A stretch of 64,000 nt of DNA, taken from the IMG/VR virus record IMGVR_UViG_3300027749_000111, positions 1 through 64,000 of that record, one strand, 5' to 3'. This DNA comes from a virus. The notes below the pieces were generated by a model. That model did not search any database. It saw only the letters and a program-made list of their open reading frames with translations, and was not told the DNA's origin. This document shows, piece by piece, positions 2,968 to 36,322 of this stretch (its first letter is position 1; each line of letters starts with the position of its first letter). Made by a program: the position numbers and the translations under genes.

Positions 2968-4134
2968 ATGAAAAATTGGATCCCAGACATGTGGCAGCGT
3001 AAGGTTGCACACTCTGATGAATATAAAACATTCTCGGAATTTGCAAAGCACGTCAGAGATCACCATTCTGAATTCCTCAACGGTGATGCGAAACATGTCC
3101 TCAACGGTGCTGAGTACGATCCCGATTCATTTTTCCCAGAAGTCGCAGCTCACATAGACGAGATATACAGACCAGAGTACATTCAAAATATGATCCGTAG
3201 TTATACGAGGCAAATTCACCCGGAAGCTTATAGGGAAAGTCCCCAGGTCACAAACATATCAAATGAAATTTGCGGATGTGGTAATCCTGCTTATGCAACT
3301 GGAGCAGATGGCCATCCCATTTGTAAGGAACATTTATTCAAAGAGCTGGGTGGCGCGGGACACTTGGGGGTTGGCGTCGAACCGTTTGACTCAGACTCAG
3401 CTCGTCAAGAGATAGATAGTATCCCATCATTTACAGATGAAGAATGGAAAGACATGAAAATTACGTTTAATGGCGAACCTCATACTGGCAGTAGAATAAA
3501 CTGGCAACTTCCAGGAGCTGTTAAATACGCTCATGATGACCTACACCCATGGCCGATGACTGAGCAGGAAGCAGCGACTCACGTTTTAAGCAGCGGGCAC
3601 CATGAAGAAATAATAAGAGAAATGATGTCCCAGTCCGGTTTGAGTCGTGAAGAATCAATTCAGGGTATATTAAAATATATCAAAAGCCCTTTGAGAACCC
3701 ACACAATGCTTCATAAAAACCAGCCATTTGGCAAGTCTTCTCATGAGCACGATGAAGAACCATTAGAAGTAGATGTTCCTGAAACTATTGAAACAATTAT
3801 ACCAACTACTATCGGTGTTGGTGCTAATGCACGTCGTGCTGATAAAACTGACAAACTAAATTCAGGAAAAGATCACTGGCAACAAAGATATGCAATGGAC
3901 GAAGGCGAATTTGGTGAAGCAACGAATCCCGAACAACACATAATGACCATTCCATGCAGAACGTGTAACGTAGACCAAAACATTTCCGTTAGCCCAGAAC
4001 AACAACGACAATTACAATTGCCCAGAGCGCAACGCCCCCTCATTCAGGATATCCTTCCTCACCATCCTGTAGGTGTACGTGAGCTATTCATCTCAGGAAC
4101 TTGTGATCCTTGTTGGAAAAAAATGTTCAGATAA
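2968..4134 (+). CDS. Unrecognised protein with N-terminal R-K-V-A tag and Cys clusters
   Basis: 388 residues, ATG 2968 behind AAAGGAATACA. The N-terminus MKNWIPDMWQRKVAHSDE carries the basic-hydrophobic-Ala motif common in this region. A Cys cluster CGCGNPAYATGADGHPICKEH (about residues 106-126, split here for reading) looks like a small zinc finger. A second Cys pair set, CRTCN near residue 332 and CDPCW near the end, could form another zinc site. An EPFDSDSA motif near residue 140 recurs as EPFDFDSP in the gene at 6396. An internal HWQQRYAMDEGE near residue 305 resembles the N-termini of the next two proteins. Function unknown; possibly a head-internal protein (inference). Confidence 0.75.
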   Translation: MKNWIPDMWQRKVAHSDEYKTFSEFAKHVRDHHSEFLNGDAKHVLNGAEYDPDSFFPEVAAHIDEIYRPEYIQNMIRSYTRQIHPEAYRESPQVTNISNEICGCGNPAYATGADGHPICKEHLFKELGGAGHLGVGVEPFDSDSARQEIDSIPSFTDEEWKDMKITFNGEPHTGSRINWQLPGAVKYAHDDLHPWPMTEQEAATHVLSSGHHEEIIREMMSQSGLSREESIQGILKYIKSPLRTHTMLHKNQPFGKSSHEHDEEPLEVDVPETIETIIPTTIGVGANARRADKTDKLNSGKDHWQQRYAMDEGEFGEATNPEQHIMTIPCRTCNVDQNISVSPEQQRQLQLPRAQRPLIQDILPHHPVGVRELFISGTCDPCWKKMFR

Positions 4135-4144
4135 AAGGAATACA

Positions 4145-4525
4145 ATGAAAGATTGGAATCTACGTTATGCCAGTGAAATGGATGAACAAACACTAAATCG
4201 TCTTATCCCAACTACTAGCAGTGAAATTAGAATGAATCCATATAGTCGTAGTGTTCAAAAGCATGTACTGCACAAACCAGTTGGTAATCTTGATCATATT
4301 ATTACAGTTGTAGGTAAGTACCCAAAACTTATACACCACCGTGCCTACATGTATGAAAACGAATCCACAGAACCAACTGGATGGGGCGAACACGCTACTG
4401 AAGCATTATACCAGCACTTTTTGGAAGAACCAATAGTTTTGCCCAATCAAGATGATAGGCACCATCCTGATAATCACCAACACATACTTCATAGAGTTAA
4501 AAGTTGGATAGCCAAACAAGTATAA
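4145..4525 (+). CDS. Tandem paralog A, N-terminal WNLRYASE tag
   Basis: 126 residues from ATG 4145. This start has AAAAGGAATACA directly upstream and aligns with the start of the paralog at 4575, so longer upstream starts are rejected. Both proteins begin MK-x-WNLRYA-x-EMDEQTLNR and share TTSSEI, ENEST and EEPIV-x-PNQDD with a terminal HHPDNH motif. This copy is the more His-rich. No family recognised. The conserved first dozen residues ending RYASE resemble a removable leader of a phage-head protein, which is inference. Confidence 0.75.
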   Translation: MKDWNLRYASEMDEQTLNRLIPTTSSEIRMNPYSRSVQKHVLHKPVGNLDHIITVVGKYPKLIHHRAYMYENESTEPTGWGEHATEALYQHFLEEPIVLPNQDDRHHPDNHQHILHRVKSWIAKQV

Positions 4526-4574
4526 GCTAGTTTGAAGAAGACGGATCACTTCTACACATTTAAGGAATACAATC

Positions 4575-4982
4575 ATGAAAAATTGGAATCTACGTTATGC
4601 TGCTGAAATGGACGAACAAACACTAAATCGTATTGTTCCCACTACTAGCAGTGAAATTAAAATGAATCCAGTTAGCATGTTTAATAATTATAGTGGTCAA
4701 AATAATTATAGTGCTCAAATGCATTTATTGAACAGGCCAATTGGTAATCTTGGTCAAATTATGACACTTATAGGTAATAATTCAAGATTTATACCCAACA
4801 ATGCCTACATGTTTGAAAACGAATCCACAAGAACTGAATGGGAAAGCCAGGCTAATGAAGCATTACAACAGCACTTTGAGGAAGAACCAATAGTTTTTCC
4901 CAATCAAGATGATTTGCACCATCCCGACAACCACCGATACGTACTTAATAGAGTTAAAAGTTATGTGGCCAATCAAGTATAA
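4575..4982 (+). CDS. Tandem paralog B, N-terminal WNLRYAAE tag
   Basis: 135 residues from ATG 4575 behind AAGGAATACAATC. Roughly half its residues match the preceding protein over the full length. It has an insertion of Asn/Tyr-rich sequence near residues 36-52 (NNYSGQNNYSAQ). The 16 bases around the stop (GTATAAGCTAGTTTGA) are identical in both genes, so the duplication included downstream DNA and is probably fairly recent. Function unknown. The tag and position suggest the same fate as its neighbours. Confidence 0.75.
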   Translation: MKNWNLRYAAEMDEQTLNRIVPTTSSEIKMNPVSMFNNYSGQNNYSAQMHLLNRPIGNLGQIMTLIGNNSRFIPNNAYMFENESTRTEWESQANEALQQHFEEEPIVFPNQDDLHHPDNHRYVLNRVKSYVANQV

Positions 4983-5035
4983 GCTAGTTTGACCTTGCAA
5001 AAAATTCGGGCCAAGTGTCTGGTCTGGCGCGGCAC

Positions 5036-5071: not shown

Positions 5072-5092
5072 TCCAAAAGAAGGAACGCAGTT

Positions 5093-5533
5093 ATGAGCGA
5101 CTATATCACTAGCAGGCGACAACTCAAAATAGCCAGTGAACTGTTGGAACAACAAATTCTAATGGAAATCACAGAGCTAAAGGATATGGCCTCTCGACTG
5201 CTGGGCACCGGTGAAAGTCTACCAACCATCTTGCGCCATGACCGTGGCCACGATGATTGGCATCGCAGCATGGGCCAGGAGCCCTGCACCAGCGAAAGCG
5301 ATTGCGCCAGCAAGGCACAGGTGCACAAGAGCATGGAACACCGTGCCAGTGCACCGCAGCCCAGCATTAACGACACATTAGAAGCTCTTGAAAGAGTAGA
5401 ATTCAACTATCGCACTCTGTCCAAACAGCTTGCAGCACAAGGCCTGCACACCGAGGCCGCAACGCATGCTGAGCATGCACAAAGTGCACGAATGGGCCTG
5501 GATGCCTTGAAAAGGCTAATAGAACAGCAATGA
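5093..5533 (+). CDS. Helical protein with N-terminal LKIASE tag
   Basis: 146 residues, ATG 5093 behind AAGAAGGAACG. It begins MSDYITSRRQLKIASELLEQ, another basic-hydrophobic-Ala-Ser-Glu N-terminus. The rest is mostly charged helix, with a central His/Cys-containing section (HDRGHDDWHRS; CTSESDCASK) and a C-terminal helix rich in Ala and His. Its stop overlaps the next start by four bases (ATGA at 5530), so the two are translationally coupled. This gene has more G/C-ending codons than its neighbours. No family recognised. Confidence 0.75.
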   Translation: MSDYITSRRQLKIASELLEQQILMEITELKDMASRLLGTGESLPTILRHDRGHDDWHRSMGQEPCTSESDCASKAQVHKSMEHRASAPQPSINDTLEALERVEFNYRTLSKQLAAQGLHTEAATHAEHAQSARMGLDALKRLIEQQ

Positions 5534-6026: not shown

Positions 6027-6386
6027 ATGGAATACTATAATTTTTTAAAGGTTGCTTACAGTGAAGGCAATCACAATCACACTCCCGGTCAAAGCTGCAT
6101 GCACTGCGATACAATCGGTCACTTGATCAGTGAACTCTACATGCGAATTCGTCATCCTGGTGCTGCCACTGGCAAGAATCCACTGGATAGATTGCGCAGA
6201 GCCATTCCAACCACTCGAGCTGACAACAATCTGACTTCAGATAGAAGCATAGGCAATGATTTTACCGGGCCAATCAATCTTGATCTTGGTATTATAAGAC
6301 AGCTGGATGAAAATCGTTTGAGTCTATTGCCTGATGAAACTCCAGAAGAGGAAACCACCTGGATGATTGATGAGCCCAAAGATTAG
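6027..6386 (+). CDS. Small protein with N-terminal LKVAYSE tag
   Basis: 119 residues, ATG 6027 behind GTAGGAGTATAT, one of the better ribosome sites in this region. The N-terminus MEYYNFLKVAYSEGNHNHTPG carries the tag motif, followed by HTPGQSCMHCDT, which with HNH upstream could form a His/Cys metal site. The rest is polar and acidic at the end. It stands about 120 bp after the previous gene in a leader with no clear promoter match. Function unknown. Confidence 0.75.
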   Translation: MEYYNFLKVAYSEGNHNHTPGQSCMHCDTIGHLISELYMRIRHPGAATGKNPLDRLRRAIPTTRADNNLTSDRSIGNDFTGPINLDLGIIRQLDENRLSLLPDETPEEETTWMIDEPKD

Positions 6387-6395
6387 AATGCTATT

Positions 6396-7778
6396 ATGAA
6401 TAAATTTAATAGCAAGACTCATAAACTATCAGCAGCGGATGACTCTACTGACCCTGTTCTTAAGAGTGTAATAGGGCAACCTATTGATAGTATAAGAACT
6501 ATACACAATGGCAGTAGTATGGGTATTGCTGGCTCAGCAATACATCCTGATACAGTTTCAGACAGAGTTGCTGGTCATATAGCTAGACTTTACCTTGGTG
6601 CAATTGACAATGATCCCAGCAAGGTTAGTCCTATTGCACAAGAGCTTGCTGGTATTAAAATTGAACCGATAAGAGAAGGCAACAGAGCAACAGAGGACAG
6701 CACTATAACAATAGATCCTAGGGCTAGTCGTCTTGTACGATCACGATCATTGCATGAATTTTCTCAAATACCATTAGAATACACATCAGAGGAAGAATCT
6801 GGAATTGGCGAAGGCCTTTATACCGGCATTAATCTTACAATGGACCATTTTTTTAGAGATCCTGAACTGCCAACTCATATTGAAAATGGAAAGACCTTTG
6901 CCGCTGGTCACATGGACTACCCAGGCTTTGGCGAAATGATTGTGTGGCCGCACACACAGCTTGGCCAGGTGCATAGTTGGGTGCATGATCTATTGCATAG
7001 ACACATAAGCAGTGGTCAATGCGATGAAGAACACATGCAAAGTTTGATAGCTGGACTTGGTGTTGTCAGCCAAGCAGCTGAACCCAAAGAAGAACTTGGC
7101 AAGGGCGGAAAGGCCCTTGGTTGGGAACCCTTTGATTTCGATTCACCAATACAACAATTAAAATACCCAGTGCCCCTTCATCATGCAGTTGAACAGGTGC
7201 TTGGCAATGTGCGTCGTTCACCTGGTATCAGATTGCGAAAAACTGGCAATCCCGATAGAGATGCGTACTACCAACATCTTTGGGATAGCATTCCAGATGT
7301 TCGCTTTGGCCTTGACCTTTCACCAATGACATTAAACGCTGCCAGCCAAACAAGTCGTAGTCTGTTGTTTGACCAACAGCACAAGATGCGAGTGATGGAT
7401 AGTAGACGTGATGATCACGATCCATTGCTTGCTAACATTGTTGGAGGTGTTTTGTTAAGAAAAAAGAGCATCACTGGCCTTGATCTTAGTGCTCTTGCTC
7501 CACGAACCGGCATAGCCGCTGGGAATCTTGATTGGGACACAGGTGGAGCTCAGGCAACTATGAAAGCGCTTGGAATTGCGCAACAAAGAAGGACACAGGG
7601 TGCAACCTATCCAGATGCGTTGGCTATTAGTGGTATGGAAAAAGCCACACCTGAGTTTTTAGCTCAGGTCAATCTGCTGAGTAATATTGGTCCTGGACAA
7701 GATATTTCTGGAATTCAATCGGATATAGATGAACTTAGAAAACGATACCGTGGTAATTATACACCAAAAGGTAAATAA
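6396..7778 (+). CDS. Large unrecognised protein with EPFDFDSP motif
   Basis: 460 residues, ATG 6396. It starts MNKFNSKTHKLSAADD; the FNSK stretch and the basic-hydrophobic segment recur at the starts of the proteins at 18305 and 22935. Mid-protein has a His-rich section (HMDYPGFGEMIVWPH...QVHSWVHDLLHRH, residues about 170-205) that might coordinate metal. It is followed by GWEPFDFDSPIQQ near residue 245, related to EPFDSDSA in the 2968 protein and AFDADSPIEMF in the 22935 protein. No enzymatic family recognised. The shared segments suggest a diverged phage-specific family. Confidence 0.75.
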   Translation: MNKFNSKTHKLSAADDSTDPVLKSVIGQPIDSIRTIHNGSSMGIAGSAIHPDTVSDRVAGHIARLYLGAIDNDPSKVSPIAQELAGIKIEPIREGNRATEDSTITIDPRASRLVRSRSLHEFSQIPLEYTSEEESGIGEGLYTGINLTMDHFFRDPELPTHIENGKTFAAGHMDYPGFGEMIVWPHTQLGQVHSWVHDLLHRHISSGQCDEEHMQSLIAGLGVVSQAAEPKEELGKGGKALGWEPFDFDSPIQQLKYPVPLHHAVEQVLGNVRRSPGIRLRKTGNPDRDAYYQHLWDSIPDVRFGLDLSPMTLNAASQTSRSLLFDQQHKMRVMDSRRDDHDPLLANIVGGVLLRKKSITGLDLSALAPRTGIAAGNLDWDTGGAQATMKALGIAQQRRTQGATYPDALAISGMEKATPEFLAQVNLLSNIGPGQDISGIQSDIDELRKRYRGNYTPKGK

Positions 7779-10173: not shown

Positions 10174-11082
10174 ATGATGAAACGCACAGCTGATACACCA
10201 AATGGAAATCATGGGATGGATGCCGACCTTGATACCATTGAAGAAGAAAACACGTTTGGCATACCAGGAACTAGTCGCATACCATCAAAACAATTGTTAG
10301 CTAGTATACGTAGACTTGCTGACATGGGCAATCAAGATGAAAACGCAACAGAAATAACAGCACCAACTGGAACTGGTAAGATCGATTTAAAAAAAGAACC
10401 ACCTGCTGTTAAAAATGAAGGGCTTGCTAGTGTTAGTCCAGGTTCATTATCAACACTGATTGGAGCAAGTAAAATGAGTTTACAACAAAGAATAGCATAT
10501 ATAATGGAAAATGGTCAACCATTTTGCAATCACTGCGAAAGCCACTACTTTCCTAAGTCTTTGGGCATTACTGCATGTACCGATTGTGGTTGCAAACGCC
10601 CTAATGTTGATCATGGCAGTCAAGATGGTAACTTTTCTCGTGTAGAAGGCGGAACAGTTGCTGATGAAGTTGGTGGAAAAGAAATTATCAAAGTGCAATC
10701 TGTTAGATTGGCAAGCACCGATGACTATGTTAAATTGTTTAACAGCAAGATCGCTACTGACAGCGATAACTACAATCGTGGCTACAATGATGCTATGAAT
10801 GGTCAGGAACTGGATGAGGACCTTGCTCTGCTCAGTGATGACTATTACAATGGCTATGAACAATATAAGTTTTTTAATAAAACGCCACAACAGAGTGTAA
10901 GACAAAATTTGTACGATATCAAGCCAAATAGCAATGGTATTCCACGCAGTTATGATCATCACCTAACTCCTGGTGAATTTGATCGTGGACCCATTCAATT
11001 GACAGATGGTCAAGGACGGGCTGCTGTAGCAAACAAATTGCCATTTCCAATTGACGTAATAGAAAAGTTCTTTGAGGTATAA
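10174..11082 (+). CDS. Zinc-ribbon protein with internal RLAS/KIAT motifs
   Basis: 302 residues, ATG 10174 (tandem ATGATG; no strong ribosome site). It begins MMKRTADTPNGNHG. A four-Cys zinc ribbon is visible near residues 117-140 (FCNHCESHYF ... CTDCGCKRP). After residue 180 come VRLASTDDYVKLFNSKIATD, holding two copies of the basic-hydrophobic-Ala motif. A Tyr/Gly/Asp-rich block follows (YNRGYNDAMNGQELDEDL and DDYYNGYEQY) that looks like a duplicated half-motif. Function unknown. It sits among tagged proteins. Confidence 0.7.
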   Translation: MMKRTADTPNGNHGMDADLDTIEEENTFGIPGTSRIPSKQLLASIRRLADMGNQDENATEITAPTGTGKIDLKKEPPAVKNEGLASVSPGSLSTLIGASKMSLQQRIAYIMENGQPFCNHCESHYFPKSLGITACTDCGCKRPNVDHGSQDGNFSRVEGGTVADEVGGKEIIKVQSVRLASTDDYVKLFNSKIATDSDNYNRGYNDAMNGQELDEDLALLSDDYYNGYEQYKFFNKTPQQSVRQNLYDIKPNSNGIPRSYDHHLTPGEFDRGPIQLTDGQGRAAVANKLPFPIDVIEKFFEV

Positions 11083-11790: not shown

Positions 11791-12501
11791 ATGTCATACG
11801 AAAACTTTGAAAACGAAATCAAGACTGCGGCAAATGACAGCACTTGGTTCAATGGTACGTCAGAAAGCATCCTTTTACGCCTTGACAGGCTTCAAGACCT
11901 TTTGGGCCGTGCACGGATGGCTGCTAGCACTCCTAACTTAAGCGATCGTGAACTAGAGCGCTACTCCAACACAATCACTCAGCTGTCAACTGAAAAAGAA
12001 CAATTGGAAAAGCTTGCAAGTGAATACGTTGACTTTGACGTTGAAGATTACCTTAATAGCCTTCCTGGCGGAACAATTGCTAGAGAATACCGTGTTAGCA
12101 GCGCTGGAACCAGTGATTTGGGTGAAGATGATGGTAGTTTTCTGTATAGAACAGCTTCCAAGATTCAAGAAGAATACGAAGACAATGACTGGATTAGTTT
12201 TGTAACTGCTGGTGCTGAGGTTTGGGTTGAAGACCAAAACCATCATTTGCTCAAGAGTCAACTTAATACTCGTGAAGCTGCTGTCTACTACGTAGAACAA
12301 AAGACACTACCAATCCTTGATGTTATCAAGCGTGCTGCTATCATTGATAACTTTGTAGATAATGCAGAAATATGCCGTCGTGCTAAAAACGATATTTCTA
12401 GCTTTCGCACTATGAAGAGTGCTAGTGCCAAGAAGCTGTCCAGCAACTTTGTTAAAGAAGCCCTGGACGACTCCTTTGGAGATAATATAAACTGGCTGTA
12501 A
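11791..12501 (+). CDS. Helical protein with tag-like motifs, upstream of Dps
   Basis: 236 residues, ATG 11791. It starts MSYENFENEIKTAANDS and contains a coiled-coil-prone region (residues about 25-80, LLRLDRLQDLLGRARMAAS and LSTEKEQLEKLASEY). FLYRTASKIQEEYED, a segment VTAGAEVWVEDQNHHLL and a C-terminal MKSASAKKLSSNF follow. The several K/R-x-A-S sites resemble the presumed protease motif of this phage. The stop is one base before the Dps start, so the two are cotranscribed and may act together. No family recognised. Confidence 0.7.
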   Translation: MSYENFENEIKTAANDSTWFNGTSESILLRLDRLQDLLGRARMAASTPNLSDRELERYSNTITQLSTEKEQLEKLASEYVDFDVEDYLNSLPGGTIAREYRVSSAGTSDLGEDDGSFLYRTASKIQEEYEDNDWISFVTAGAEVWVEDQNHHLLKSQLNTREAAVYYVEQKTLPILDVIKRAAIIDNFVDNAEICRRAKNDISSFRTMKSASAKKLSSNFVKEALDDSFGDNINWL

Positions 12502-12502: not shown

Positions 12503-13015
12503 ATGAAAGACAGTTTGTTTGGTTTCCGACTTGTTGGAGCCGTAGAAGATGACACCAAGCAAGAGGTATCTGCTGATACCAGTCTTGTTGGTGTACTCAA
12601 AAAAATGCTTGCTGAAGCATATGTTCTTTACCACACTATCCATGGATTTCATTGGAATGTAACTGGTAGCGACTTCTATGAATATCACAAATTTTTTGAT
12701 GAAATAGTAGATGATATTTATGAGCATATTGATCCTATTGCAGAAAATATACGCAAACTTGGTAGCAATACACCATTTGTTATGAGCCAATTGGCTGATC
12801 TAAGTAGCATTGATGAAACTGATCTTGTCAGTAAGAACGCTTTAGAACTAACAAAAAAGTTTTATGATATGAATGAACAATATATTGATCATATCAAGGA
12901 TGCATTCAAAGTAGCTAACGATGCTAACGAACAAGGTGTTGCTAATTTTATTGCTGAGCGCATTGACATGCACCAAAAATGGTCATGGTTCTTAAAAGCA
13001 TCTCTGGAAAAGTAA
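12503..13015 (+). CDS. dps: Dps-family ferritin-like protein
   Basis: 170 residues, ATG 12503. Dps proteins form 12-subunit shells that oxidise iron with hydrogen peroxide at subunit interfaces, store it, and often coat DNA. The ferroxidase ligands are all visible in the family spacing: His50 (FHWN), His62, Asp66, Asp77 and Glu81. A helical C-terminal half ends with MHQKWSWFLKASLEK. Length fits the family. The N-terminus (about 25 residues) has some Lys but is not strongly basic, so DNA binding is uncertain. It might protect packaged or replicating phage DNA from oxidative damage (inference). Neighbours are of unknown function. Confidence 0.9.
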   Translation: MKDSLFGFRLVGAVEDDTKQEVSADTSLVGVLKKMLAEAYVLYHTIHGFHWNVTGSDFYEYHKFFDEIVDDIYEHIDPIAENIRKLGSNTPFVMSQLADLSSIDETDLVSKNALELTKKFYDMNEQYIDHIKDAFKVANDANEQGVANFIAERIDMHQKWSWFLKASLEK

Positions 13016-16702: not shown

Positions 16703-16774
16703 TGCTCGGTAACTCAGAGGCAGAGTACTCGCCTGTTAAGCGAAGTGTCGTAGGTTCGATCCCTACCCGAGCAG
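16703..16774 (+). tRNA. tRNA-Asn (GTT)
   Basis: 72 nt. Acceptor arms TGCTCGG/CCGAGCA pair fully. D-stem ACTC/GAGT. Anticodon loop CTGTTAA gives anticodon GTT. T-arm GTAGG-TTCGATC-CCTAC. Discriminator G, no encoded CCA. The outermost anticodon-stem pair is a C-A mismatch, otherwise intact. Confidence 0.9.
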
Positions 16775-16778
16775 CTAA

Positions 16779-16814
16779 TGGGAGATCGTCCAATGGCAGG
16801 ACAACAGACTTTGA
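16779..16814 (+). pseudogene. 5' half of a tRNA-Gln (TTG), truncated remnant
   Basis: TGGGAGA, then D-arm GTCC-AATGGCA-GGAC, then the anticodon 5' stem and the loop start ACAGA-CTTTGA, ending exactly where the intact tRNA-Gln begins at 16815. It has no 3' half. It has the T1 and TTG anticodon context of bacterial tRNA-Gln. It looks like the scar of a deletion or template switch between two tandem tRNA-Gln genes. Confidence 0.75.
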
Positions 16815-16887
16815 TGAGGGGTAGTTCAATTGGCAGAACGGCGGACTTTGAATCCGTAGGTTGAAGGTTCGAGTCCTTCCTCCTCAG
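16815..16887 (+). tRNA. tRNA-Gln (TTG)
   Basis: 73 nt. Acceptor TGAGGGG/CTCCTCA (one G-T pair). D-stem GTTC/GAAC. Anticodon stem GCGGA/TCCGT with loop CTTTGAA, anticodon TTG. T-arm GAAGG-TTCGAGT-CCTTC. It has the U1-A72 pair usual for glutamine tRNAs. Discriminator G, no encoded CCA. Confidence 0.9.
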
Positions 16888-16901
16888 CAAATTGTAAAAG
16901 A

Positions 16902-16929
16902 TGTAAAATAGTCGTTGGAATAATATAGT
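16902..16929 (+). promoter_or_regulatory. Putative phage promoter before the HNH gene
   Basis: TGTAAA at 16902-16907, 16 bases, TATAGT at 16924-16929, 61 bp ahead of the ATG at 16963. It matches the TGTAAW-N16-NATAGT signal of other operons here. A second TGTAAA sits nine bases upstream. Confidence 0.5.
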
Positions 16930-16962
16930 CTTTGAATACAATAAAAAATTCAAAGGATCAAT

Positions 16963-17322
16963 ATGTCTAAACAAGCATGGCGTGATAACAATAAAGATGC
17001 TGTTAATGAATACCAGCGTAAATTTTATGCTGAAAACAAAGAAAAACAACTTAAAAAAATATATGCGAATAGAGCTAAGCGTCGAGCAAGACTAAAAGAA
17101 ACTATCAATAACATCAAGAATACACCATGTAAAGATTGTGGCAATATTTATCACCCTGAAGCAATGGATTTTGATCACCTTGGTAATAAAGAATTCAATA
17201 TTGCAAATGCTATGAGAGATGTTAAGAATCTTGATAGAGTATTAAAAGAAGTAGAGAAATGTGATATTGTATGTTCCAACTGTCATAGGGTTAGAACAGC
17301 AAAAAGAGCTGGTAGATCCTAG
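16963..17322 (+). CDS. HNH endonuclease
   Basis: 119 residues, ATG 16963 behind AAAGGATCAAT. A basic N-terminal helix (residues 1-60, Lys/Arg-rich) should bind DNA. The nuclease core is TPCKDCGNIYHPEAMDFDH, with the Cys pair and His of the first HNH half, followed by CDIVCSNCHRVRTAKR with the second Cys pair and His. This is the zinc-stabilised HNH form with all expected Cys and His present. It lies between tRNA genes, a common place for homing-type nucleases, and could be free-standing and mobile (inference). Confidence 0.85.
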   Translation: MSKQAWRDNNKDAVNEYQRKFYAENKEKQLKKIYANRAKRRARLKETINNIKNTPCKDCGNIYHPEAMDFDHLGNKEFNIANAMRDVKNLDRVLKEVEKCDIVCSNCHRVRTAKRAGRS

Positions 17323-17334
17323 TCTCCCAGCCAA

Positions 17335-25556: not shown

Positions 25557-26138
25557 ATGGAACCTCGTCTTAATATCAAGATTGCTCAAATCTTTGAAGC
25601 TGCTGAAATGCCCGTTGACCCTAACTTTATTGGTCCAGATGACCAATGGGTTGGCGATTGGATTGACAGAACTGAAGATTATCCAGAAAATATGCAAGCT
25701 TACATGGAACAACGTGAAGGCATTGGTGAACACCTTGACCGCAACGTTCAAAATGAAGGTTTTAGCGCCACACCAAACCCTGCTCAAGACTATGCATTGA
25801 TGGTTCTGGAGCCTGAAGTTGCTGGAACCCCAGACCTTGCAGAGATTCCTGGCGGAGCGGGCGCTTCTGGCACAACATTGCCTCGTGCTGCTAGCAAGCT
25901 GCGCAAACAGGCCAATGGTTTTAACAACACACAATCTCGTGTTGACTTTACCATGGGTGTAGTTGCCAATGCTTCATCTGGTTCATTGACCAATGCTAGA
26001 GTTGTTGTTGAAACTCCCAGTACAAAGATTGCCGGTACAGTAATTGCTGTTGGCGAACAAGAATTTGCTGTTGTTTGGGATGACCGGACTGCAAGCGTTG
26101 AACGCAAGGGCGACTACGAGCTAGTATTCTCTGAATAA
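25557..26138 (+). CDS. First gene of head operon; C-terminal SH3-like barrel
   Basis: 193 residues, ATG 25557. It starts MEPRLNIKIAQIFEAAEMP, a basic-hydrophobic-Ala start with a nearby Ala-Ala-Glu. An acidic helical middle leads to a linker (GGAGASGTTLPRAASKLRKQ). The C-terminal 55 residues (TKIAGTVIAVGEQEFAVVWDD) look like a KOW/SH3-type small barrel. In its position before the portal it may be a head protein, but no family is recognised. Confidence 0.65.
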   Translation: MEPRLNIKIAQIFEAAEMPVDPNFIGPDDQWVGDWIDRTEDYPENMQAYMEQREGIGEHLDRNVQNEGFSATPNPAQDYALMVLEPEVAGTPDLAEIPGGAGASGTTLPRAASKLRKQANGFNNTQSRVDFTMGVVANASSGSLTNARVVVETPSTKIAGTVIAVGEQEFAVVWDDRTASVERKGDYELVFSE

Positions 26139-27497: not shown

Positions 27498-27686
27498 ATG
27501 GATCGTAAGCAAAACATTAGAACAGCTAGCATTCGTCGTGTTGGAGCTAACTTTGATTTTAATGGCAACCCTATTGACCAAAATGATGGTGGCGGTGTTA
27601 TCCATTTTAGTGGCTCCATGGCCTTTTATCCATGTGGTTGCCAAAAGGTTGGAAACATAGGCACTTGCAGTTGTTTGACCTTCTAA
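27498..27686 (+). CDS. Small protein with C-terminal Cys cluster and RTAS tag
   Basis: 62 residues, ATG 27498 behind AAAGGATAATATA. It begins MDRKQNIRTASIRRVGANF, with the basic-x-Ala-Ser motif at residues 8-11. It ends FYPCGCQKVGNIGTCSCLTF, four Cys in two Cys-x-Cys pairs, a compact metal site. It sits immediately before the portal gene with an 11-base gap. Function unknown. Confidence 0.65.
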   Translation: MDRKQNIRTASIRRVGANFDFNGNPIDQNDGGGVIHFSGSMAFYPCGCQKVGNIGTCSCLTF

Positions 27687-27696: not shown

Positions 27697-30069
27697 ATGT
27701 CATCTCAAGACTGGAGTGCATCTGCGGAATTAAACCGTATGCGCACAGCTGGTATTACCGGATCAAGTAACCCTATTCGCAATCGCATTGAAACTCGCGA
27801 ACTGTTGAACAGAGTTAAAAATGGTTCGCTAGCAGATGACGTTATGCGAATGCCCACTGAAGGCAGGTCACGACTCAACAATCTTGGCAACGGCGTTAAC
27901 ATGGAAGGCATGGCCAAGACCATTGGTCGTACTGCTGCTGCCACTGGTAGCGATGCACAATGGGCATGGCCAAAGTTGCATGACCCCTTTGAATACTGGC
28001 GTGAACGCACCTGGTGGTTCAACATGGAAGACCCTGATGAGCAGACACGTAAAATTCGTGACTGGGCTCGTTTACTCTACACAACTCACCACCTTGTCCC
28101 CGGCCTAATTGATATTTACACTCGTTTTCCCTTGTTGGACATTGAGTTTGTTCACCACGATAAAAGAATCAGTGATTTTTACAATGAATTGTTCTTTGAT
28201 GGTTTGAACTATCAAGAATTCCTTTATGACCTTGGCCGTGAACACTGGACTGTTGGTGAAGTGTTTGCCATGGGCAGCTGGCACGATGGTATTGGTGCAT
28301 GGGAAGATGATGAAATCATCAATCCTAACGACGTTATTGTTGCTAAGAATCGTGCTCTTCGCACCTATCAATTCCACGTAAAAGTACCAGATGAAATTAA
28401 AAAGCTTATTGAACGACGTGACCCTTCTCAGGAATACCAGATGCTTATGCAGATGTATCCTGATGTTGTTGCCTGGGCTCGTCAAGACAAGGAAATTCCA
28501 GTTTCTGATGTGATCATGCAACAGATCAAATTCAAAACCAATCCTTGGTCTGAACATGGTACTCCAATCCTACTTAGAGCATTCCGTATGCTTATGCTTG
28601 AAGAGAGTCTTAACGCAGCCCAGGATGCCATTGCTGACCGTTTGTACTCACCATTGATCCTAGCCACCCTAGGACTCCCTGACGTTGACCAAGATGGTCC
28701 ATGGATTCCTGATGCTACTGAATTGCAATCATTGCGCAACGACCTCTCAATGGCCATTAACAGTGACTTCCGTTTGATGACATACCACCACGGTTTAACC
28801 ATTCAGAATGCTTTTGGTCGTGAAAGCATGCCACGTTTGGATGCAGACTTTATGCGAGTACAGACCAACGTCATGGGTGTATTTGGTATTGGTGCAGACT
28901 TGATCCAGGGCGGCCAAGGCGGTACTTATGCAAGCGGTGCGCTCAACCGTGAGCTAATCACCCAAATGCTTAGCACCTACCAGCACAAAATTGAAAAATT
29001 TATTCGTAAGCGTATGGAACCAGTGGCTGAACGTCAAGGACATTATGAAATGCGCAATATTGGCGGTCAAATGATTCCAATCATGGAAACAGTATTGATG
29101 GTTGATGAAGAAACAGGTGCTGAATACATTGAAAAGCGTCCTAAATTAGCTATTCCTGAAGTGCGCTTTCGCAGCATGAACTTGCGTGATGAAACAGTTG
29201 AACGTGGTTTCTTACAAAACTTAATGGCTGCAGGCTTTCCAATTTCATTGGGCACACTGGCTGTTAATATTCCAATTGATTTTGATGACGAAATTGAAAC
29301 TCGTCGCGAAGAAAAAGTCAAAACAGTAATTGCTGAACAAGAGTTCAAACGTGAATTGTTTCAACAGCTATTGGTGCAACAATTGCCAATCCCACCTGAA
29401 TACATTCAAGAATACCAGGCCTACCTTGCAATGCTAGAAAACCCTGCACTGGCTGCACAGCTGGCTCCAGGGGCTATTTCTGGCCTTGTTACGCCGCCAT
29501 CTGCTCCCAATATGACTGGAGTGCCCACACAACATAGTGATGCTGCTATTGGAGCGCAGATCTCACCACTTGTCAATCAAATGGCTGCACAACAACAAAC
29601 ACAACGTGGAACAGAAAGGCAACGTCCTTCTGAATCTTACGAACAAAAGAAAGATCAACCTAAGCCTAGCAAAAAAGGTCCAAAGAATGGTCCTCAAAAG
29701 AACAAGAAAAAGGCTAGTGCTGATGATGAAGACCTGACAACTAGTTTTGGTGAGGGTTTTAATCCATTGCAAGAACGTGTTGAATACGGTGGTCGTATGA
29801 AATTTGCTACACCAATGGAAAGTCGTAAGCGTCGTCGTATGAAATTGGCTACAGGCATGAAAGTAAATATAGACAATGATTATGAAAAGTTTGACGAAGA
29901 AGAATTTAAATTACACCTTGCAGCGCTTATAGAAGCAAGTGATGAATCTTTTATTCCAACACCAACTAACTTAGACGAACATAGCAGCGGTGAAGGTGGA
30001 ATGGATCAACCAGCACGCATACAAACTAACCCAGAAGAAAAGGGCGTAGGACATGAGCCAATTGTTTAA
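27697..30069 (+). CDS. Portal protein
   Basis: 790 residues, ATG 27697 behind AAGGAATATTAC. Portals form the dodecameric ring at one capsid vertex through which DNA is packed and released. The core resembles large phage portals: EYWRERTWWFNMEDPDEQT, a crown of helices with HTPILLRAFRMLMLEESL-like stem features (residues about 285-310), and the wing/clip region to about 550. The C-terminal 200 residues are an unusual tail: Gln/Pro-rich linker, Lys-rich RKK-type stretch, KKASADDE, then MKFATPMESRKRRRMKLATG. The last has two exact copies of the presumed protease motif, so the tail may be trimmed after assembly (inference). Confidence 0.88.
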   Translation: MSSQDWSASAELNRMRTAGITGSSNPIRNRIETRELLNRVKNGSLADDVMRMPTEGRSRLNNLGNGVNMEGMAKTIGRTAAATGSDAQWAWPKLHDPFEYWRERTWWFNMEDPDEQTRKIRDWARLLYTTHHLVPGLIDIYTRFPLLDIEFVHHDKRISDFYNELFFDGLNYQEFLYDLGREHWTVGEVFAMGSWHDGIGAWEDDEIINPNDVIVAKNRALRTYQFHVKVPDEIKKLIERRDPSQEYQMLMQMYPDVVAWARQDKEIPVSDVIMQQIKFKTNPWSEHGTPILLRAFRMLMLEESLNAAQDAIADRLYSPLILATLGLPDVDQDGPWIPDATELQSLRNDLSMAINSDFRLMTYHHGLTIQNAFGRESMPRLDADFMRVQTNVMGVFGIGADLIQGGQGGTYASGALNRELITQMLSTYQHKIEKFIRKRMEPVAERQGHYEMRNIGGQMIPIMETVLMVDEETGAEYIEKRPKLAIPEVRFRSMNLRDETVERGFLQNLMAAGFPISLGTLAVNIPIDFDDEIETRREEKVKTVIAEQEFKRELFQQLLVQQLPIPPEYIQEYQAYLAMLENPALAAQLAPGAISGLVTPPSAPNMTGVPTQHSDAAIGAQISPLVNQMAAQQQTQRGTERQRPSESYEQKKDQPKPSKKGPKNGPQKNKKKASADDEDLTTSFGEGFNPLQERVEYGGRMKFATPMESRKRRRMKLATGMKVNIDNDYEKFDEEEFKLHLAALIEASDESFIPTPTNLDEHSSGEGGMDQPARIQTNPEEKGVGHEPIV

Positions 30070-31046: not shown

Positions 31047-31718
31047 ATGATTAAATTTGGCGCTCCCACTGTAACTTTAATGGGTAGAAGCGCACTGTCT
31101 AATATTAATTCTAATGTACAACCTATTGAATTGCATCATGTTAAACTAGAAGATTTTTCTAATTTTAAACCTGAAAAGGGTTTTGTTTATGTTGCTAGCC
31201 GTGCAATCAGTTCTCGTGTAAATGCCAACTATGATGGATGGCCTGTAGACCAAATTAAAAAAAGTTACAAATCATTTGTTGGTCGTCCAATCTATGTAGA
31301 ACACAACAATAGCGATCCAGATCGTGCGCGTGGAGTTATCCTAGATGCCATCTACAAAGAATCAAAGTTATCCAGTGGTATTGTTGATGCCAGCGTTTAT
31401 TGTTTGATGGAAGTCGATGCTCAAACCTTTCCCAAATTGGCCAGTGCCATTATGGAAGGCAAACTAAAGGCTGTGAGCATGGGTGCTGATGTAGAAGGCA
31501 CTCAGTGCAGCGCTTGCGGCAAGTATGCAAGCAAACCAAGCGAATACTGTGTGCATATCCCCAGACTAAAGGGGCGTACAGTAACAGTATACAAAGAAGG
31601 CAGCCGTTCAGAAAGCTTGGTATTTGAAAGTTGCATCAAGCCTAACTTTTTTGAATTGAGCTTTGTATTTGATCCAGCTGATGAAAGCGCCTGGGTTACA
31701 GACAAGAGGCGTTACTAA
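31047..31718 (+). CDS. Prohead maturation protease
   Basis: 223 residues, ATG 31047. It belongs to the herpesvirus-assemblin/T4-gp21-like serine proteases that cut scaffold and capsid proteins after prohead assembly. The catalytic His is in YVEHNNSDPD (His86), the Ser in AVSMGADVEG (Ser144), the family spacing. A Cys cluster follows Ser144 (CSACGKYASKPSEYCVH), a metal-binding insert seen in relatives from large phages. The gene precedes a zinc protein, scaffold and capsid genes, the standard order. Its target motif is discussed under findings. Confidence 0.85.
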   Translation: MIKFGAPTVTLMGRSALSNINSNVQPIELHHVKLEDFSNFKPEKGFVYVASRAISSRVNANYDGWPVDQIKKSYKSFVGRPIYVEHNNSDPDRARGVILDAIYKESKLSSGIVDASVYCLMEVDAQTFPKLASAIMEGKLKAVSMGADVEGTQCSACGKYASKPSEYCVHIPRLKGRTVTVYKEGSRSESLVFESCIKPNFFELSFVFDPADESAWVTDKRRY

Positions 31719-32512
31719 TGGAATTGGTAGTGCACGATAACTTAAAGATAGCATTAGAATTGTTGCGGTTGCCAAGCTTTTCACAACCAGTTGACAATTG
31801 CCCAAAGTGTGGTGTGTCTAGTTTTTCAATAAAAAATGATGGTATATGTCAGAACCGTACAACTTGTGGTTATATTGATCCTCAAGTTGAAGCTGATATG
31901 GCTGCCTGGCAACAGGCTACAATGCTCCAACAACAAATTAACGAAGAAAAGAACCAAGACCTTGGCAAATCAAAACCAAAGGCAAAGAATAAAAAGAAGG
32001 CTATCAGAGAGGCTGCTCAACAGAGCCCATCTGTACCCATTAAAAATTATAATAATTCTTTAGAAATTTCTGAAGCAAAAAGATGTAAAATGTGTGGTGA
32101 AAAGAGTATAGTAGATGGTAACTGTACTACAAGAATGCCAGACGGTGGCCTTTGTGCAGGAACAAAAGCTATATTTGATATAGAATCAAAAGAGTTTACT
32201 GGTATTGATGAAAAAGCTTTAGACATTAGAGGCCCCAAAATCAGGCCAACTTTTACTGTTTGGAACAGTCCAGCAAAGAAAAAAATAAAAGCTTCAAAGA
32301 ATATCTTAGATTTAAAAATCTCACTAACAATAGATCCCAGGGCTGTACCGCCAGGAACTATGTTAGACAACAGCATTGTTGTAGCAGATGAACCTGCTAC
32401 AAGAGCGCAAGAAATGTTAGAGATCGATGCACAGATGCAAGCAAGGCAAAAGCTTGATGCATCAATGCAACAAGGTCAATCTGACACTGATACAGAAACA
32501 ACCAATAGCTAG
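31718..32512 (+). CDS. Zinc-ribbon protein between protease and scaffold
   Basis: 264 residues, ATG 31718 overlapping the protease stop (TAATG). The N-terminal zinc ribbon reads CPKCGVSSFS...CQNRTTCGYID. A Lys-rich coil (QQQINEEKNQDLGKSKPKAK) follows, then a second ribbon CKMCGEKSIVDGNCTTRMPDGGLC near residue 125. The rest is polar with a helical end. Translational coupling to the protease suggests it acts in prohead formation, perhaps as a scaffold partner or protease cofactor (inference). Confidence 0.65.
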   Translation: MELVVHDNLKIALELLRLPSFSQPVDNCPKCGVSSFSIKNDGICQNRTTCGYIDPQVEADMAAWQQATMLQQQINEEKNQDLGKSKPKAKNKKKAIREAAQQSPSVPIKNYNNSLEISEAKRCKMCGEKSIVDGNCTTRMPDGGLCAGTKAIFDIESKEFTGIDEKALDIRGPKIRPTFTVWNSPAKKKIKASKNILDLKISLTIDPRAVPPGTMLDNSIVVADEPATRAQEMLEIDAQMQARQKLDASMQQGQSDTDTETTNS

Positions 32513-32520: not shown

Positions 32521-34047
32521 ATGAGTCGTTTTGATGACGAATTAATCAAGCAAGCTGAAAACGCCTACGAACTTCGTGTTGGTCCAGGTGCTGTTCAAAC
32601 ACCCCGCCAGATTCCCCACATTCAAAATATTCAACCCTATGCTGATGCTTTGGTCCCAGCAGAAACTGGCATTAGCAACCAAATGAATTTGACCAGTGCT
32701 GATCGCCCTGTTACCAGAATGCTTGATGTTCGTGACCTTGACGCCGCTGACCCAGCTGGTGGAAAACCTGGTGAAATTGTTGGTATGCCTGGCATGAGCA
32801 ATGTATACGCTTTGGGCGGACCAGACCCAGTTATCCAACCGGGCGCTCTTGTTCCCAGCACTGGCTTTGGTGGTGACATTGCTGGCCTGCCACAAGGCAG
32901 TCTTGGCGTTCTTCCAAAGGCTGCTAGCATAAACCCAATTGATGAAAGTTTGTATCAAGTTTACAAGGCTAGCCGCGAAGTGCGTGATGCAATTGCTAGT
33001 GAAATTGATTTTGATTTTGGTAATTTGATCACTGCTAGCAATGAAGCATCTACAGTAATGCGTTTTGCTAGTGCTGACAATGAAATCAATCAAATTATTG
33101 GCACCGTTGCCAACATTGTACTTGACATTGAAAATGACCTTATTGAAACTGGTGATTTTAAGCAGGCTAGTGCTGACCTTGAATCATTGGAAGGTTTATT
33201 GGATGATGTTAACAAGTACGCTAAAAAGAAGAACTGCACCAGTTGCAAGGGTGAAGGTTGCGATGAATGCAAAGACGAAGAGGGTACCACAGCTGCCAAG
33301 AAGAAAAAGAAGGGCATGCCACCTTGGCTAAAGAAAAAAGGTGACGACGACGAAGACGACGACGACGAAGACGAAGATGATGAATGCAGCAATTGTCATG
33401 GTAAAGGTTGTGACAAGTGCAAGAAATCCAAGTCAAAGAAGAAAAAGAAGGCTTCTGCTTATTATGCCACCAACGGTAACCAGGAGACTGGTGTCACCAT
33501 TGACGTTCGTGATCTTGATGATCAAGCCGGGTTGTTTAGCCGTTTGAAAGTTATGACTCCTGACTTTACCACCAATCCTCTTGACGCTGAAGAAATCAAT
33601 GCTGAAGATGCTGGTTACGTTAAATTTTACAATGATGGTTCTTCGACCGGTATCATACCTGGACAAGAGCCTCACAAGACGGAGGTATTCCCAATGGATG
33701 GCACTAACCCTGCTTATGTTCCTTACCAGAATGCTCTCGGTGCCGTACAGGCTAGCCGTGAACGTATCTTTGATTCTCTGCAAGTTGTAGAGCGTCTCGA
33801 GAAGCTTGGAATGGTCAGTAGTGATGACCGTGCCAAGCACCTCGCTAAATTTGAGCAGATGTCCGATTCTAAGCTTGCTGGTTTTAAAGCTAGTTTGGAC
33901 ATGCTTGAAGAGTCTGGGGCTCGTCAACCCCGGAGCCAGAAATTGGCAAGTGGTTCTAGCCGCCTGCCAGAAATGGGTCGGTTGACAACGGCCTCAACAG
34001 TTAATCGTCAGCAGCTTTCCGCTGATGACTGGCTGATGACACTTTAA
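32521..34047 (+). CDS. Scaffold-like head protein with many tag motifs and zinc/acidic insert
   Basis: 508 residues, ATG 32521 behind TAGGAGCTACC. Its place between protease and decoration/capsid genes is where scaffold genes lie. Helical regions alternate with short motifs of the K/R-x-A-S type: LPKAAS, YKASRE, ITASNE, RFASADNE, KQASADLE, KKASAYYA, KLASGS and LTTAST. These would be cut many times if that is the protease site. An insert at about residues 235-315 has two CxxCxGxGCxxC-like zinc units around a near-pure Asp/Glu run and Lys-rich stretches. Such a zinc/acid/base insert is unusual for a scaffold. Confidence 0.65.
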   Translation: MSRFDDELIKQAENAYELRVGPGAVQTPRQIPHIQNIQPYADALVPAETGISNQMNLTSADRPVTRMLDVRDLDAADPAGGKPGEIVGMPGMSNVYALGGPDPVIQPGALVPSTGFGGDIAGLPQGSLGVLPKAASINPIDESLYQVYKASREVRDAIASEIDFDFGNLITASNEASTVMRFASADNEINQIIGTVANIVLDIENDLIETGDFKQASADLESLEGLLDDVNKYAKKKNCTSCKGEGCDECKDEEGTTAAKKKKKGMPPWLKKKGDDDEDDDDEDEDDECSNCHGKGCDKCKKSKSKKKKKASAYYATNGNQETGVTIDVRDLDDQAGLFSRLKVMTPDFTTNPLDAEEINAEDAGYVKFYNDGSSTGIIPGQEPHKTEVFPMDGTNPAYVPYQNALGAVQASRERIFDSLQVVERLEKLGMVSSDDRAKHLAKFEQMSDSKLAGFKASLDMLEESGARQPRSQKLASGSSRLPEMGRLTTASTVNRQQLSADDWLMTL

Positions 34048-34070
34048 CCCCTACCTAAGGAGAAAGAAAC

Positions 34071-34592: not shown

Positions 34593-34611
34593 CCCTGAAA
34601 GGTAAATAAAC

Positions 34612-35625
34612 ATGAGTAACATTTTCCCTAATGGCGCTGTAGCCGATCACCTGGCTCCACGCGTTGCAAAGAAGTCTGATGACTACGTTGCTGGAATCGT
34701 AGAGGCTCAAGAGCGTCTCGCTTCGGCTACTGGTCGTAAGACTGCTTCCCGTGATGAGAAGCAACGCCGCCTCGCCGGTATCCTTGCTGACAAGGACAAC
34801 TACATGGTCCGTTTGGGCCAGGGTATGATTGGTCCAATCCAGTTGAAGCTTCGTTACCAGGGTATGACCCGTAACGTGCTGCTGGAAGACCCATTGACTC
34901 CTGGTGTACCAGTCATGTACGACGTACTTGACGAATACGGTCAGGCCTATATTCTTTCTGGTAACGAAGGTGAAGTCCGTGTGACACCCTTCGAAGGCAA
35001 GAAGGTTCCAGTACGTTTGTTCCGTATTGCTACCTTCCCCCAGATCAAGAAGGAAGACCTCTGGTACCTGCGTGTTAACATCGTTGAGTATGCTCAGGAC
35101 ATGAGCAAGCAAGCTATCATGATGCAGGAAGACGCTCGTCTTATCACTGTGCTTGAGGCTGCTATCAACAACTACGCTGTTGACCCCAACCACGTTGTTA
35201 GCCCCAACCACATCGTCAACGAACTGTCGGGTTACATTACCCCAGACTCGATGTACGACCTGGTTGCCCTGATTGAAGTCCACCAGTTGGAGGCCAGTCG
35301 TCTTTTGTTCAACCCAATCGACTACCGTGACCTCTACAAGTGGGACATCAACCAGACCGGTTGGGCCTTCAAGGACCGCGTTGTTGCCGGTGAGCGTATC
35401 GTTCAATTTGGTGGCTTCCAAGTTCAGCGTTCGATTGAAGTACCTCAGGGTACTGTTTACATGACCCCAAGCCCCGAGTTCCTCGGTGTCTTCCCAGTCA
35501 TGTACTCGCTCGACGTCGAAGAGAACCACACCCCTGAGAAGTTCCACAAGGGTTGGGTCATGGACGAGCTCGTTAGTGAGATTGTTCTTAACCCCCGTGG
35601 TTTGGGCAAGATCGTTAAGGCCTAG
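34612..35625 (+). CDS. Major capsid protein (HK97 fold)
   Basis: 337 residues, ATG 34612. HK97-fold landmarks: a helical N-terminal region (to about residue 60), an E-loop-like segment with LRYQGMTRNVLLEDPLTPG, a long spine helix (SKQAIMMQEDARLITVLEAA) and P- and A-domain strands. It ends NPRGLGKIVKA. Three candidate cleavage motifs lie in the first 56 residues: RLAS (35-38), KTAS (43-46) and RLAG (53-56), consistent with proteolytic maturation. Codons are more GC-rich and C-ending than in the rest of the window, as expected for the most abundant protein. A strong hairpin follows the gene. Confidence 0.88.
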   Translation: MSNIFPNGAVADHLAPRVAKKSDDYVAGIVEAQERLASATGRKTASRDEKQRRLAGILADKDNYMVRLGQGMIGPIQLKLRYQGMTRNVLLEDPLTPGVPVMYDVLDEYGQAYILSGNEGEVRVTPFEGKKVPVRLFRIATFPQIKKEDLWYLRVNIVEYAQDMSKQAIMMQEDARLITVLEAAINNYAVDPNHVVSPNHIVNELSGYITPDSMYDLVALIEVHQLEASRLLFNPIDYRDLYKWDINQTGWAFKDRVVAGERIVQFGGFQVQRSIEVPQGTVYMTPSPEFLGVFPVMYSLDVEENHTPEKFHKGWVMDELVSEIVLNPRGLGKIVKA

Positions 35626-35640
35626 TCTTAACCCTCGCAA

Positions 35641-35676
35641 TGGGTGGGGTCTAGGTGCTTTCCTAGGCCCCACCCA
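35641..35676 (+). terminator. Strong hairpin after the major capsid gene
   Basis: TGGGTGGGGTCTAGG and CCTAGGCCCCACCCA pair over 15 bp with one G-U wobble; loop TGCTTT. No long U-run follows (GCUGUAAAAAAUG), so it may act as a terminator, a partial attenuator or a 3'-end stabiliser of the abundant capsid message. Confidence 0.75.
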
Positions 35677-35758
35677 GCTGTAAAAAATGTATTAAAAGCA
35701 ATTCTAGAATTCCTAGATTTGTTAGGGCAAATAGCCCCTTGAAACAAGGAGAATTAAA

Positions 35759-36322
35759 ATGGCAAGAACAGTATCTCGTAGTGGTGATAACGGAGAATCA
35801 ACTCCAGTCCCAGTGGTTGCTCTAGATGGTTTCATCGAAGAGCACAAGGCTGACCCTGCAGACCTGAGTGCAGCAAGGATCCCAACGGCTCCAGCAGCAT
35901 TCACAGGAATGAAGGAAGTTCAGACTGCTGACTGGATTGAGAATCTTATGACCAGTGCAACAGTATTCTCAAGCCCCAAAGGTAGCTTCAAGCTAGCTTC
36001 CGCAGGTATCCACGGTAGCATCCAGCCAATTGCGGCTGAGATCCGACAGGATCCATATGTACTAAGAGCAGTACAACGTGGTCGAATTGCCTTCATCACT
36101 GAAGAAAAGGCCATGGAAAAGATCGCTACTCTTGCAGATGAAAGCAGTACAAGTGAAACCCACATGGATCGCCTTCGTGAGAGTCTTAATGCTGGTGCCA
36201 GCGAAAACAATGGGATGTACAAAATTCCATTGCCAGATGAAGCAGAGCCAAAGGGCAAGTCACAAAGCTTTGAAGAGGTCTGGGCAACAAGCACTAGCAT
36301 GCCAACAAATTTAAATAAATAA
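35759..36322 (+). CDS. Head-region protein, unrecognised
   Basis: 187 residues, ATG 35759 behind AAGGAGAATTAAA. It starts MARTVSRSGDNGEST and has SFKLASAGIHGS near residue 76, a tag-like motif. A helical second half follows (EEKAMEKIATLADESS; HMDRLRESLNAGASEN). Position after the capsid gene suggests an accessory head or completion protein. No family recognised. It is bracketed by hairpins at 35641 and 36326. Confidence 0.65.
   Translation: MARTVSRSGDNGESTPVPVVALDGFIEEHKADPADLSAARIPTAPAAFTGMKEVQTADWIENLMTSATVFSSPKGSFKLASAGIHGSIQPIAAEIRQDPYVLRAVQRGRIAFITEEKAMEKIATLADESSTSETHMDRLRESLNAGASENNGMYKIPLPDEAEPKGKSQSFEEVWATSTSMPTNLNK

Follow-up and report, generated by a model that had tools for sequence, protein, structure and literature searches.

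The 64,000-base sequence analysed here (hereafter, the window) makes up most of the 66,372-base virus record IMGVR_UViG_3300027749_000111, which comes from a lake, and the subject of this analysis is a short N-terminal leader shared by many otherwise unrelated proteins encoded in it. The main genes lie on the plus strand from position 2968 onward (coordinates are window positions and features are on the plus strand unless indicated otherwise), starting with an arm of mostly unknown genes (2968-27686), which is followed by the head genes and then by the tail genes. The head genes come in the order portal (27697), protease (31047), Cys-rich protein (31718), scaffold-like protein (32521), cement-like protein (34071) and capsid protein (34612). 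In a PHROG search, the portal was assigned to phrog_2833 and the capsid protein to phrog_2522, and phrog_2774 was matched as well. The capsid protein is 64.5% identical to that of Myrna, and homologous capsid, portal and protease are common to the window and the Bxz1-like phages (Ceeclamvirinae), with the protease matches found in the same phages; judging from these similarities, the window lineage is a relative of the Bxz1/Myrna mycobacteriophages.

The leaders end in a basic-hydrophobic-Ala core, captured below by a strict motif, [KR][VILMFYWT]A[STA], and by a looser one, [KR]-hydrophobic-A. The sequence-only reading of the window listed nine leaders, all of which are found in the translations at the corresponding starts, with three of them, at 2968 (RKVAH), 6027 (LKVAY) and 18305 (KSAT), fitting the looser core only. 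It overlooked a further tagged protein at 44629-44985, as well as leader-like starts at 6396, 20431, 25557 and 36363. The listing of N-termini yields three classes of leaders: class A, M-N-W-x-x-R-Y-A-[AS]; class B, ...F-N-[SA]-K-[YT]-A; and class C, M-x-[KN]-F-x-F-x-K...A. Class A leaders are carried by the paralogous proteins 4145-4525 (MKDWNLRYASE; this ATG sits within a longer, GTG-started open reading frame (ORF), 4073-4525) and 4575-4982 (MKNWNLRYAAE), and by the Cys-rich protein of 118 amino acids with two CxxC motifs encoded at 44629-44985 (MDWKLRYAMGRPQ), inside the tail module. Class B is represented by 18305-19741 (MARVFNSKGIVKSATSHE) and 22935-24995 (MSNKKTFNSKYATPS), the counterparts of the latter in relatives carrying FNSKTAS, FNSKYAI, FNAKYAM and FNAKYAN, and a class B-type leader opens 6396-7778 (MNKFNSKTHKLSAADD). 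The class C leader of 20431-22935 (MHKFSFKNNKIIVANS) has homologues that read MYKFSFFKKTAAQ, MRKFRFNKSAADQ and MFNFSFNKNKVKVAKD.

The other candidates are the 388-amino acid leader protein 2968-4134 with two CxxC motifs (MKNWIPDMWQRKVAHSDE; the relative in genome G001 starts MSWKERFSSKMNRSSWKIAHND), 5093-5533 (...SRRQLKIASE), the small Cys/His-rich protein 6027-6386 (MEYYNFLKVAYSE), 10174-11082 (MMKRTADTP; the homologues begin MMRYATQDN or MRYADTS and contain motif copies inside), 11791-12501, a candidate core protein with a leader and three internal motifs, 25557-26138 (MEPRLNIKIAQIF; across relatives, the N-terminus is NIK[IV]A[DEQ]LF or a close variant), the 62-amino acid protein 27498-27686 (MDRKQNIRTASIRR), 35759-36322 with two internal motifs, FKLASA and EKIATL, and 36363-36653 (MSDTSNKTAAEEA), directly after the capsid genes.

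The proposed enrichment of the motif near protein starts is borne out in the window: with gene starts picked by a simple script, the strict motif starts within the first 20 residues in 6 of the 32 upstream proteins, compared with 1 of 11 head genes and none of the 25 tail proteins, whereas 0.41 upstream occurrences are expected from 1000 composition-preserving shuffles, none of which reached 6. Over whole proteins, the strict motif occurs 21 times in the upstream arm, with 4.9 occurrences expected (about 4-fold), and 13 times in the head module, with 2.0 expected (6.5-fold); the 7 occurrences in the tail genes do not differ significantly from the 4.3 expected (p=0.12). As the window is also where the motif was picked, this enrichment alone would be circular, and independent tests weigh more.

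Such tests are afforded by 80 IMG/VR loci with related capsids. When the 22935 protein was searched against 16 of these contigs, relatives were detected in 2 only, with 29-30% identity, and by sequence comparison, the early proteins of phages with near-identical capsids appear to be mostly unrelated to those in the window. Since much of the arm turns over quickly, many of the upstream-arm proteins are independent observations. Because many of the contigs were obtained from similar lake samples and have common ancestry, they are not fully independent; the protein bodies (residues 26 on) were therefore clustered by BLAST, and the positional counts are given in cluster equivalents. In this body-clustered set, the strict motif occurs 10.0 times at positions 1-10, with 0.93 expected, and the looser core 20.8 times at positions 1-10 (4.7 expected) and 16.8 times at positions 11-20 (5.0 expected); at positions 21-50, the looser core is close to the background, so that the excess is confined to residues 1-20. 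The real motif reaches 4.0 times the expectation (235 vs 59) compared with about 0.8-1.3 times for six permuted control motifs. In the residue profile around [KR]-x-A, Trp is overrepresented three positions before the basic residue, the middle position favours Thr, Leu and Tyr, and the residue that follows the Ala is preferentially Ser (z=11) or Ala; tail proteins lack these Trp and Ser preferences. Across 12 related contigs, the arm upstream of the capsid gene is where strict and class A leaders concentrate. From 500 to 60,000 bases downstream of this gene, they are at or near the background, and class A and B leaders are nearly absent, the single class A case being the 44629 protein of the window. 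A second leader group at +60 to +92 kilobases probably belongs to the same arm on a circular map, judging from the lengths of the contigs.

The motif is therefore confirmed as real, far above chance and wider than first noticed. A chance or compositional origin, with the motif picked after looking at Ala/Lys-rich proteins, would fit its post hoc definition on the window, but the composition-preserving shuffles, the permuted motifs, the tail controls and the non-homologous relatives all exclude it and reduce its probability to a negligible one. The original proposal is supported in part: a shared leader is present at the N-termini of non-homologous proteins and is concentrated in the arm upstream of the portal, and the same core recurs in the scaffold, portal and capsid proteins.

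The 43 class A proteins represent 35 body families. There are 36 distinct class A leaders with ribosome-binding-site-like starts, and seven permuted or shifted versions of the pattern give 0-3. The codons for the class A Arg vary (AGA 17, CGT 8, CGC 5, others), and so do those for Tyr and Ala, indicating that class A is conserved as a peptide and not as DNA. It is highly improbable, then, that the shared N-termini are relics of common descent, with duplication followed by divergence of the bodies, or a DNA-level element instead of a functional peptide: a few leader proteins, such as 4145 and 4575, are true paralogues, but the number of body families, the wide variation of synonymous codons, the existence of several leader subtypes that have only [KR]-hydrophobic-A in common and the replication of the core in high-GC (guanine-cytosine) mycobacteriophages and in phage G all speak against such an origin. 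Across 2.9 million viral contigs, a DNA pattern for MNWxxRYA[AS] identifies 30 stretches, about 16 of which belong to contigs that also encode homologues of ORFs from this lineage; the others come from contigs with 0-2 lineage ORFs and are mostly at the start of short or unsupported frames. By a rough estimate, about 20 matches to such a pattern would arise by chance, which is enough to account for those outside the lineage. The literature searched yielded no earlier account of a leader of this kind in Bxz1-like phages.

Among cultured isolates, the Bxz1/Myrna group, Rhodococcus phage E3 and Gordonia phage Stormageddon resemble the window in having related portal and protease and motif-rich head proteins. 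In Phrappuccino, the protease-scaffold fusion contains 8 motifs (0.93 expected) and gp32 contains 5 (0.48 expected), Stormageddon gp9 contains 5 (0.53 expected) and Ghost gp96 contains 4 (0.93 expected), and the N-terminus of the E3 protease is MQKRIASE. The first 40 kilobases of phage G contain 21 motifs compared with 4.9 expected, mostly in head-side genes, and gp13 starts MKRLISKTAARYAASGE. In the isolates examined, none of the annotated head-side genes showed the W-x-x-R-Y-A form of the leader that is present in the window lineage. The family of the 11791 protein includes E3 gp67, Phrappuccino gp32, Ghost gp77, Stormageddon gp5 and probably a Myrna protein, and its members carry differing short leaders (MFKTRTAAN, MFRTAAPG, MFRSASVV, MFTNATRIA) ahead of a common WF[DN]G block, so that a short leader is kept in Mycobacterium, Rhodococcus and Gordonia phages although the bodies diverge. 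Compared directly, the window protein matches the isolates only weakly (Phrappuccino, E=7e-5), the link to them being made through its relatives.

The core of the leader coincides with the motif enriched in the scaffold, portal and capsid proteins. The portal (27697-30069; phrog_2833, 1e-170) contains GRTAAATG at residues 77-84, with the motif near residue 80 in relatives reading NRRTAAATGSDAQW, and the two copies reported for its C-terminal tail, MKFATP and MKLATG, are both present, as are those in the scaffold-like protein (32521-34047), at 181 (RFAS) and 474 (KLAS). The C-terminus of the latter (QKLASGSSRLPEMGRLTTASTVNRQQLSADDWLMTL) is kept in relatives, most of which show QK[VL]ASG..RLPEMGR.TTAS..........DDWLMTL. 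The scaffold and some proteins of the 11791 family have similar C-termini (in the window, at 34047 and 12501) that combine the motif, an acidic pair and a hydrophobic end (DDWLMTL, DDSLMFG, DDQLLY), and this shared ending may be a common contact site. For the capsid protein, three N-terminal copies were claimed; copies do exist, but their number depends on the definition, the strict motif occurring at 35 and 43 and the looser one at 17, 35, 43 and 53. The first capsid site, R-x-A-x-x-SDxYV or a close form, is found in 17 of the 18 aligned capsids, and the second, GRK[TL][AST] or a variant, lies about 25 residues further on. The 18th capsid protein, that of phage G (6wkk, solved, 280 residues), is encoded without such an extension and begins at the second site, which suggests that residues 1-45/46 in the window (34612-34749, with PRVAKKSDDYV and the end GRKTA-S) are a propeptide and that the predicted mature major capsid protein is encoded at 34750-35625 (phrog_2522, 3e-108). 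An AlphaFold model of the capsid protein had a mean pLDDT (predicted local distance difference test) of 31.8 and was not used.

Between the portal and the capsid genes, beside the scaffold gene, lies the candidate prohead protease (31047-31718), which matches the head maturation protease family phrog_18299 (3e-24). A tblastn search with this protein retrieved annotated head proteases of jumbo phages, and hhalign linked it to the 'prohead core protease' of Dickeya phage JA29 (98.5%) and to phage G gp19 (99.8%). The invariant His86 and Ser144 (E-H86-N, V-S144-M-G) are candidate catalytic residues. The predicted structure of the protease (pLDDT 73.6) matches predicted structures of phage G gp19 (7e-14), a PaBG protein (3e-8) and a number of proteins named as prohead proteases. 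Its Cys and His residues form a conserved cluster (C154, C157, C168, H170, C196), mostly common to phage G gp19, that is likely to be a metal site. In the isolates, protease and scaffold are fused (Myrna gp97, Phrappuccino gp53, E3 gp77), unlike the separate genes of the window, where the Cys-rich protein (31718-32512; MELVVHDNLKIALELL) lies between them. Myrna gp97 is annotated as a 'tape measure' protein, but its N-terminus is the protease.

Taken together, the leader exists, is conserved at the protein level on many non-homologous bodies, is concentrated in the head-side arm and shares its core with head proteins encoded beside the protease gene. The explanation that we consider probable is that it combines a capsid-targeting sequence with a prohead-protease site and marks a modular set of proteins packaged in the head; from these sequence patterns we infer their place in the head, the docking partner, cleavage and injection. 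Under this scheme, the aromatic-plus-basic part (W-x-x-R-Y or F-N-S-K-Y) would dock the cargo on the scaffold or the protease in the prohead core, and [KR]-hydrophobic-Ala together with the small residue would be the recognition site of the 31047-31718 protease, which would trim the leader during head maturation, as T4 gp21 trims the internal proteins. The same protease would also cut the scaffold, the N-terminal region of the portal and the capsid protein between residues 45 and 47 (GRKTA-S), although where exactly within A-[SA] the cut would fall is a guess, and the trimmed cargo would remain in the head with the DNA and enter the host on infection.

The closest known parallels are the internal proteins of T4 (IPI-III and Alt), which, like the window proteins, carry a short N-terminal peptide on diverged cargo that is poorly conserved between relatives; in T4, this peptide is removed by the prohead protease. 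The first 10 residues of the T4 leader suffice, with residues 4 and 7 important for targeting and residues 8 and 10 for processing (PMC9026906), positions comparable to those of W3 and Y7-A8 in the window leaders. In P1, the N-terminal 30 residues of DarB suffice to bring a foreign protein into the head (PMC9024508), and the window leaders resemble both the T4 and the P1 capsid-targeting sequences in position and length. The signal in P1 is known for DarB alone, whereas in the window lineage, one consensus is common to dozens of proteins, and the set of cargo proteins is much larger than in T4 and differs greatly among phages whose capsids are nearly identical. In SPN3US and phiKZ, the capsid, the portal and ejected proteins are all processed by the protease (gp245 and gp175, respectively) at a single motif that occurs several times in a propeptide (PMC10052503, PMC5694885), but this motif is A-X-E or S/A-X-E, unlike the window core, and just two of the SPN3US N-terminal propeptides are short. 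Proteases of the T4/phiKZ type cut after Glu (PMC10052503, PMC5694885, PMC9026906), whereas the core in the window lineage is basic-hydrophobic-Ala-small. The idea that the motif is itself a T4/phiKZ-like site does not hold, given that the constant residues here are a basic one two positions before the Ala and a small one after it; Glu is not enriched within the core or just after it, and the residue profile gives no support to an x-x-E cleavage motif.

A variant in which the leader is an uncleaved docking peptide that binds scaffold or capsid and carries the cargo into the head, while the protease cuts elsewhere, appears unlikely. The conservation of the W or F-N-S part besides the [KR]-hydrophobic-A core and the separability of targeting and processing residues in T4 (PMC9026906) are compatible with it, but the core recurs without the aromatic part in scaffold, portal and capsid, and where the phage G capsid begins, which fits a protease site better. 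Quite unlikely, too, is that the leader directs proteins elsewhere, to the host membrane, the phage replication compartment or the host ribosome, and resembles the head motif by coincidence. Several tagged proteins have enzyme or zinc domains and could act in the cytosol, but it is scaffold, portal and protease-scaffold proteins that are enriched in the four-residue core, not the tail or most downstream genes, and the leader contains neither a hydrophobic segment nor a classical export signal.

Several observations weigh against a leader that targets proteins to the head and is cleaved there. Some leaders deviate from the strict motif. T4 gp21 aligns with the protease only marginally (hhalign probability 7.5%), and neither the protease profile nor the model has a credible match among solved structures in the Protein Data Bank, so that it is assigned as a protease through its similarity to annotated head proteases in sequence and predicted structure. 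Of the two capsid sites, the first (R17-A19) lies within the conserved R-x-A-x-x-SDxYV block and is possibly structural. In PaBG, a fold-level relative, about 20% of the capsid protein is lost on maturation and several virion proteins undergo cleavage (PMC7412058), but the strict motif is missing from the capsid protein, gp81 and the portal; with a capsid that is processed but has no such motif, PaBG was set aside as a way of testing the motif directly.

Most of the tagged proteins have no Pfam match (46 scanned). The strongest exception is a complete amidase of 473 amino acids (PF01425, 2e-71; L104, 1155-2576, minus strand) with the leader MNWSQRYS and the domain starting from residue 33, an unexpected possible head cargo. 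A SET-domain protein (4e-8; L099, 13242-13637, minus strand) carries the leader MINWKQRYAG, and weaker matches include cupin, ParB-like nuclease, zinc ribbons and a DnaJ-type zinc region. The proposal that the phage packages a large set of zinc proteins is only weakly supported: CxxC motifs are in modest excess among tagged proteins (present in 45%, compared with 29% of untagged upstream proteins and 9% of tail proteins), so that Cys-richness is mostly a property of the whole arm. The Dps/ferritin-like protein of the window (12503-13015; PF00210, E=2e-21) has an N-terminal extension that partially fits a variant leader, W-x-G-F-[KRQ], with which five of the seven homologues in relatives begin, but the other two start directly at the ferritin domain and have no leader; the extension is a variant leader at best, and Dps is counted as possible cargo only. 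The fold of the head protease is also matched by two uncultured-phage proteins named ferritin/Dps, A0A6J5N5R9 and A0A6J5RFH1; this is a hint that Dps may occur fused to the protease, an arrangement that would place it in the head.

The majority of genes in these phages lack an assigned function; if the leader is a head-loading tag, many of them would be sorted at once as head-packed and probably delivered into the cell. Head maturation would then involve a new protease specificity, and foreign proteins could be brought into phage heads with a very short tag. Tagged genes are replaced rapidly among phages whose capsids are 97-98% identical, which suggests an exchange site for host-specific, perhaps anti-defence, proteins. 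A bolder generalization, to which we would give a little less than an even chance, is an open plug-in delivery system in which an eight-residue tag loads dozens of exchangeable proteins (amidase, SET-domain, cupin, ParB-like, Dps and zinc proteins) into the head, with trimming by a prohead protease of previously undescribed basic-hydrophobic-Ala specificity that would go back to the common ancestor with phage G.

The class A gene at 44629-44985 in the tail module is apparently an inserted cargo gene. A tagged, very basic protein of 57 amino acids (KPWDEKDPDGGKHHKLSPEQKAKAKARAKAHGRPYPNW), found in two genomes (L156, 2864-3037, and L147 of G003), is possibly DNA-binding. For the tagged KPWDE basic protein, no leaderless homologues were detected by tblastn in phages and none were confirmed in genomes, low-complexity masking being a possible cause. 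No long plus-strand gene is present in window positions 1-2967, which are likely to be a boundary or a noncoding stretch ahead of the tagged-gene arm. Within the arm, at 16703-17412, there are three tRNA genes, for Asn, Gln and Ile.

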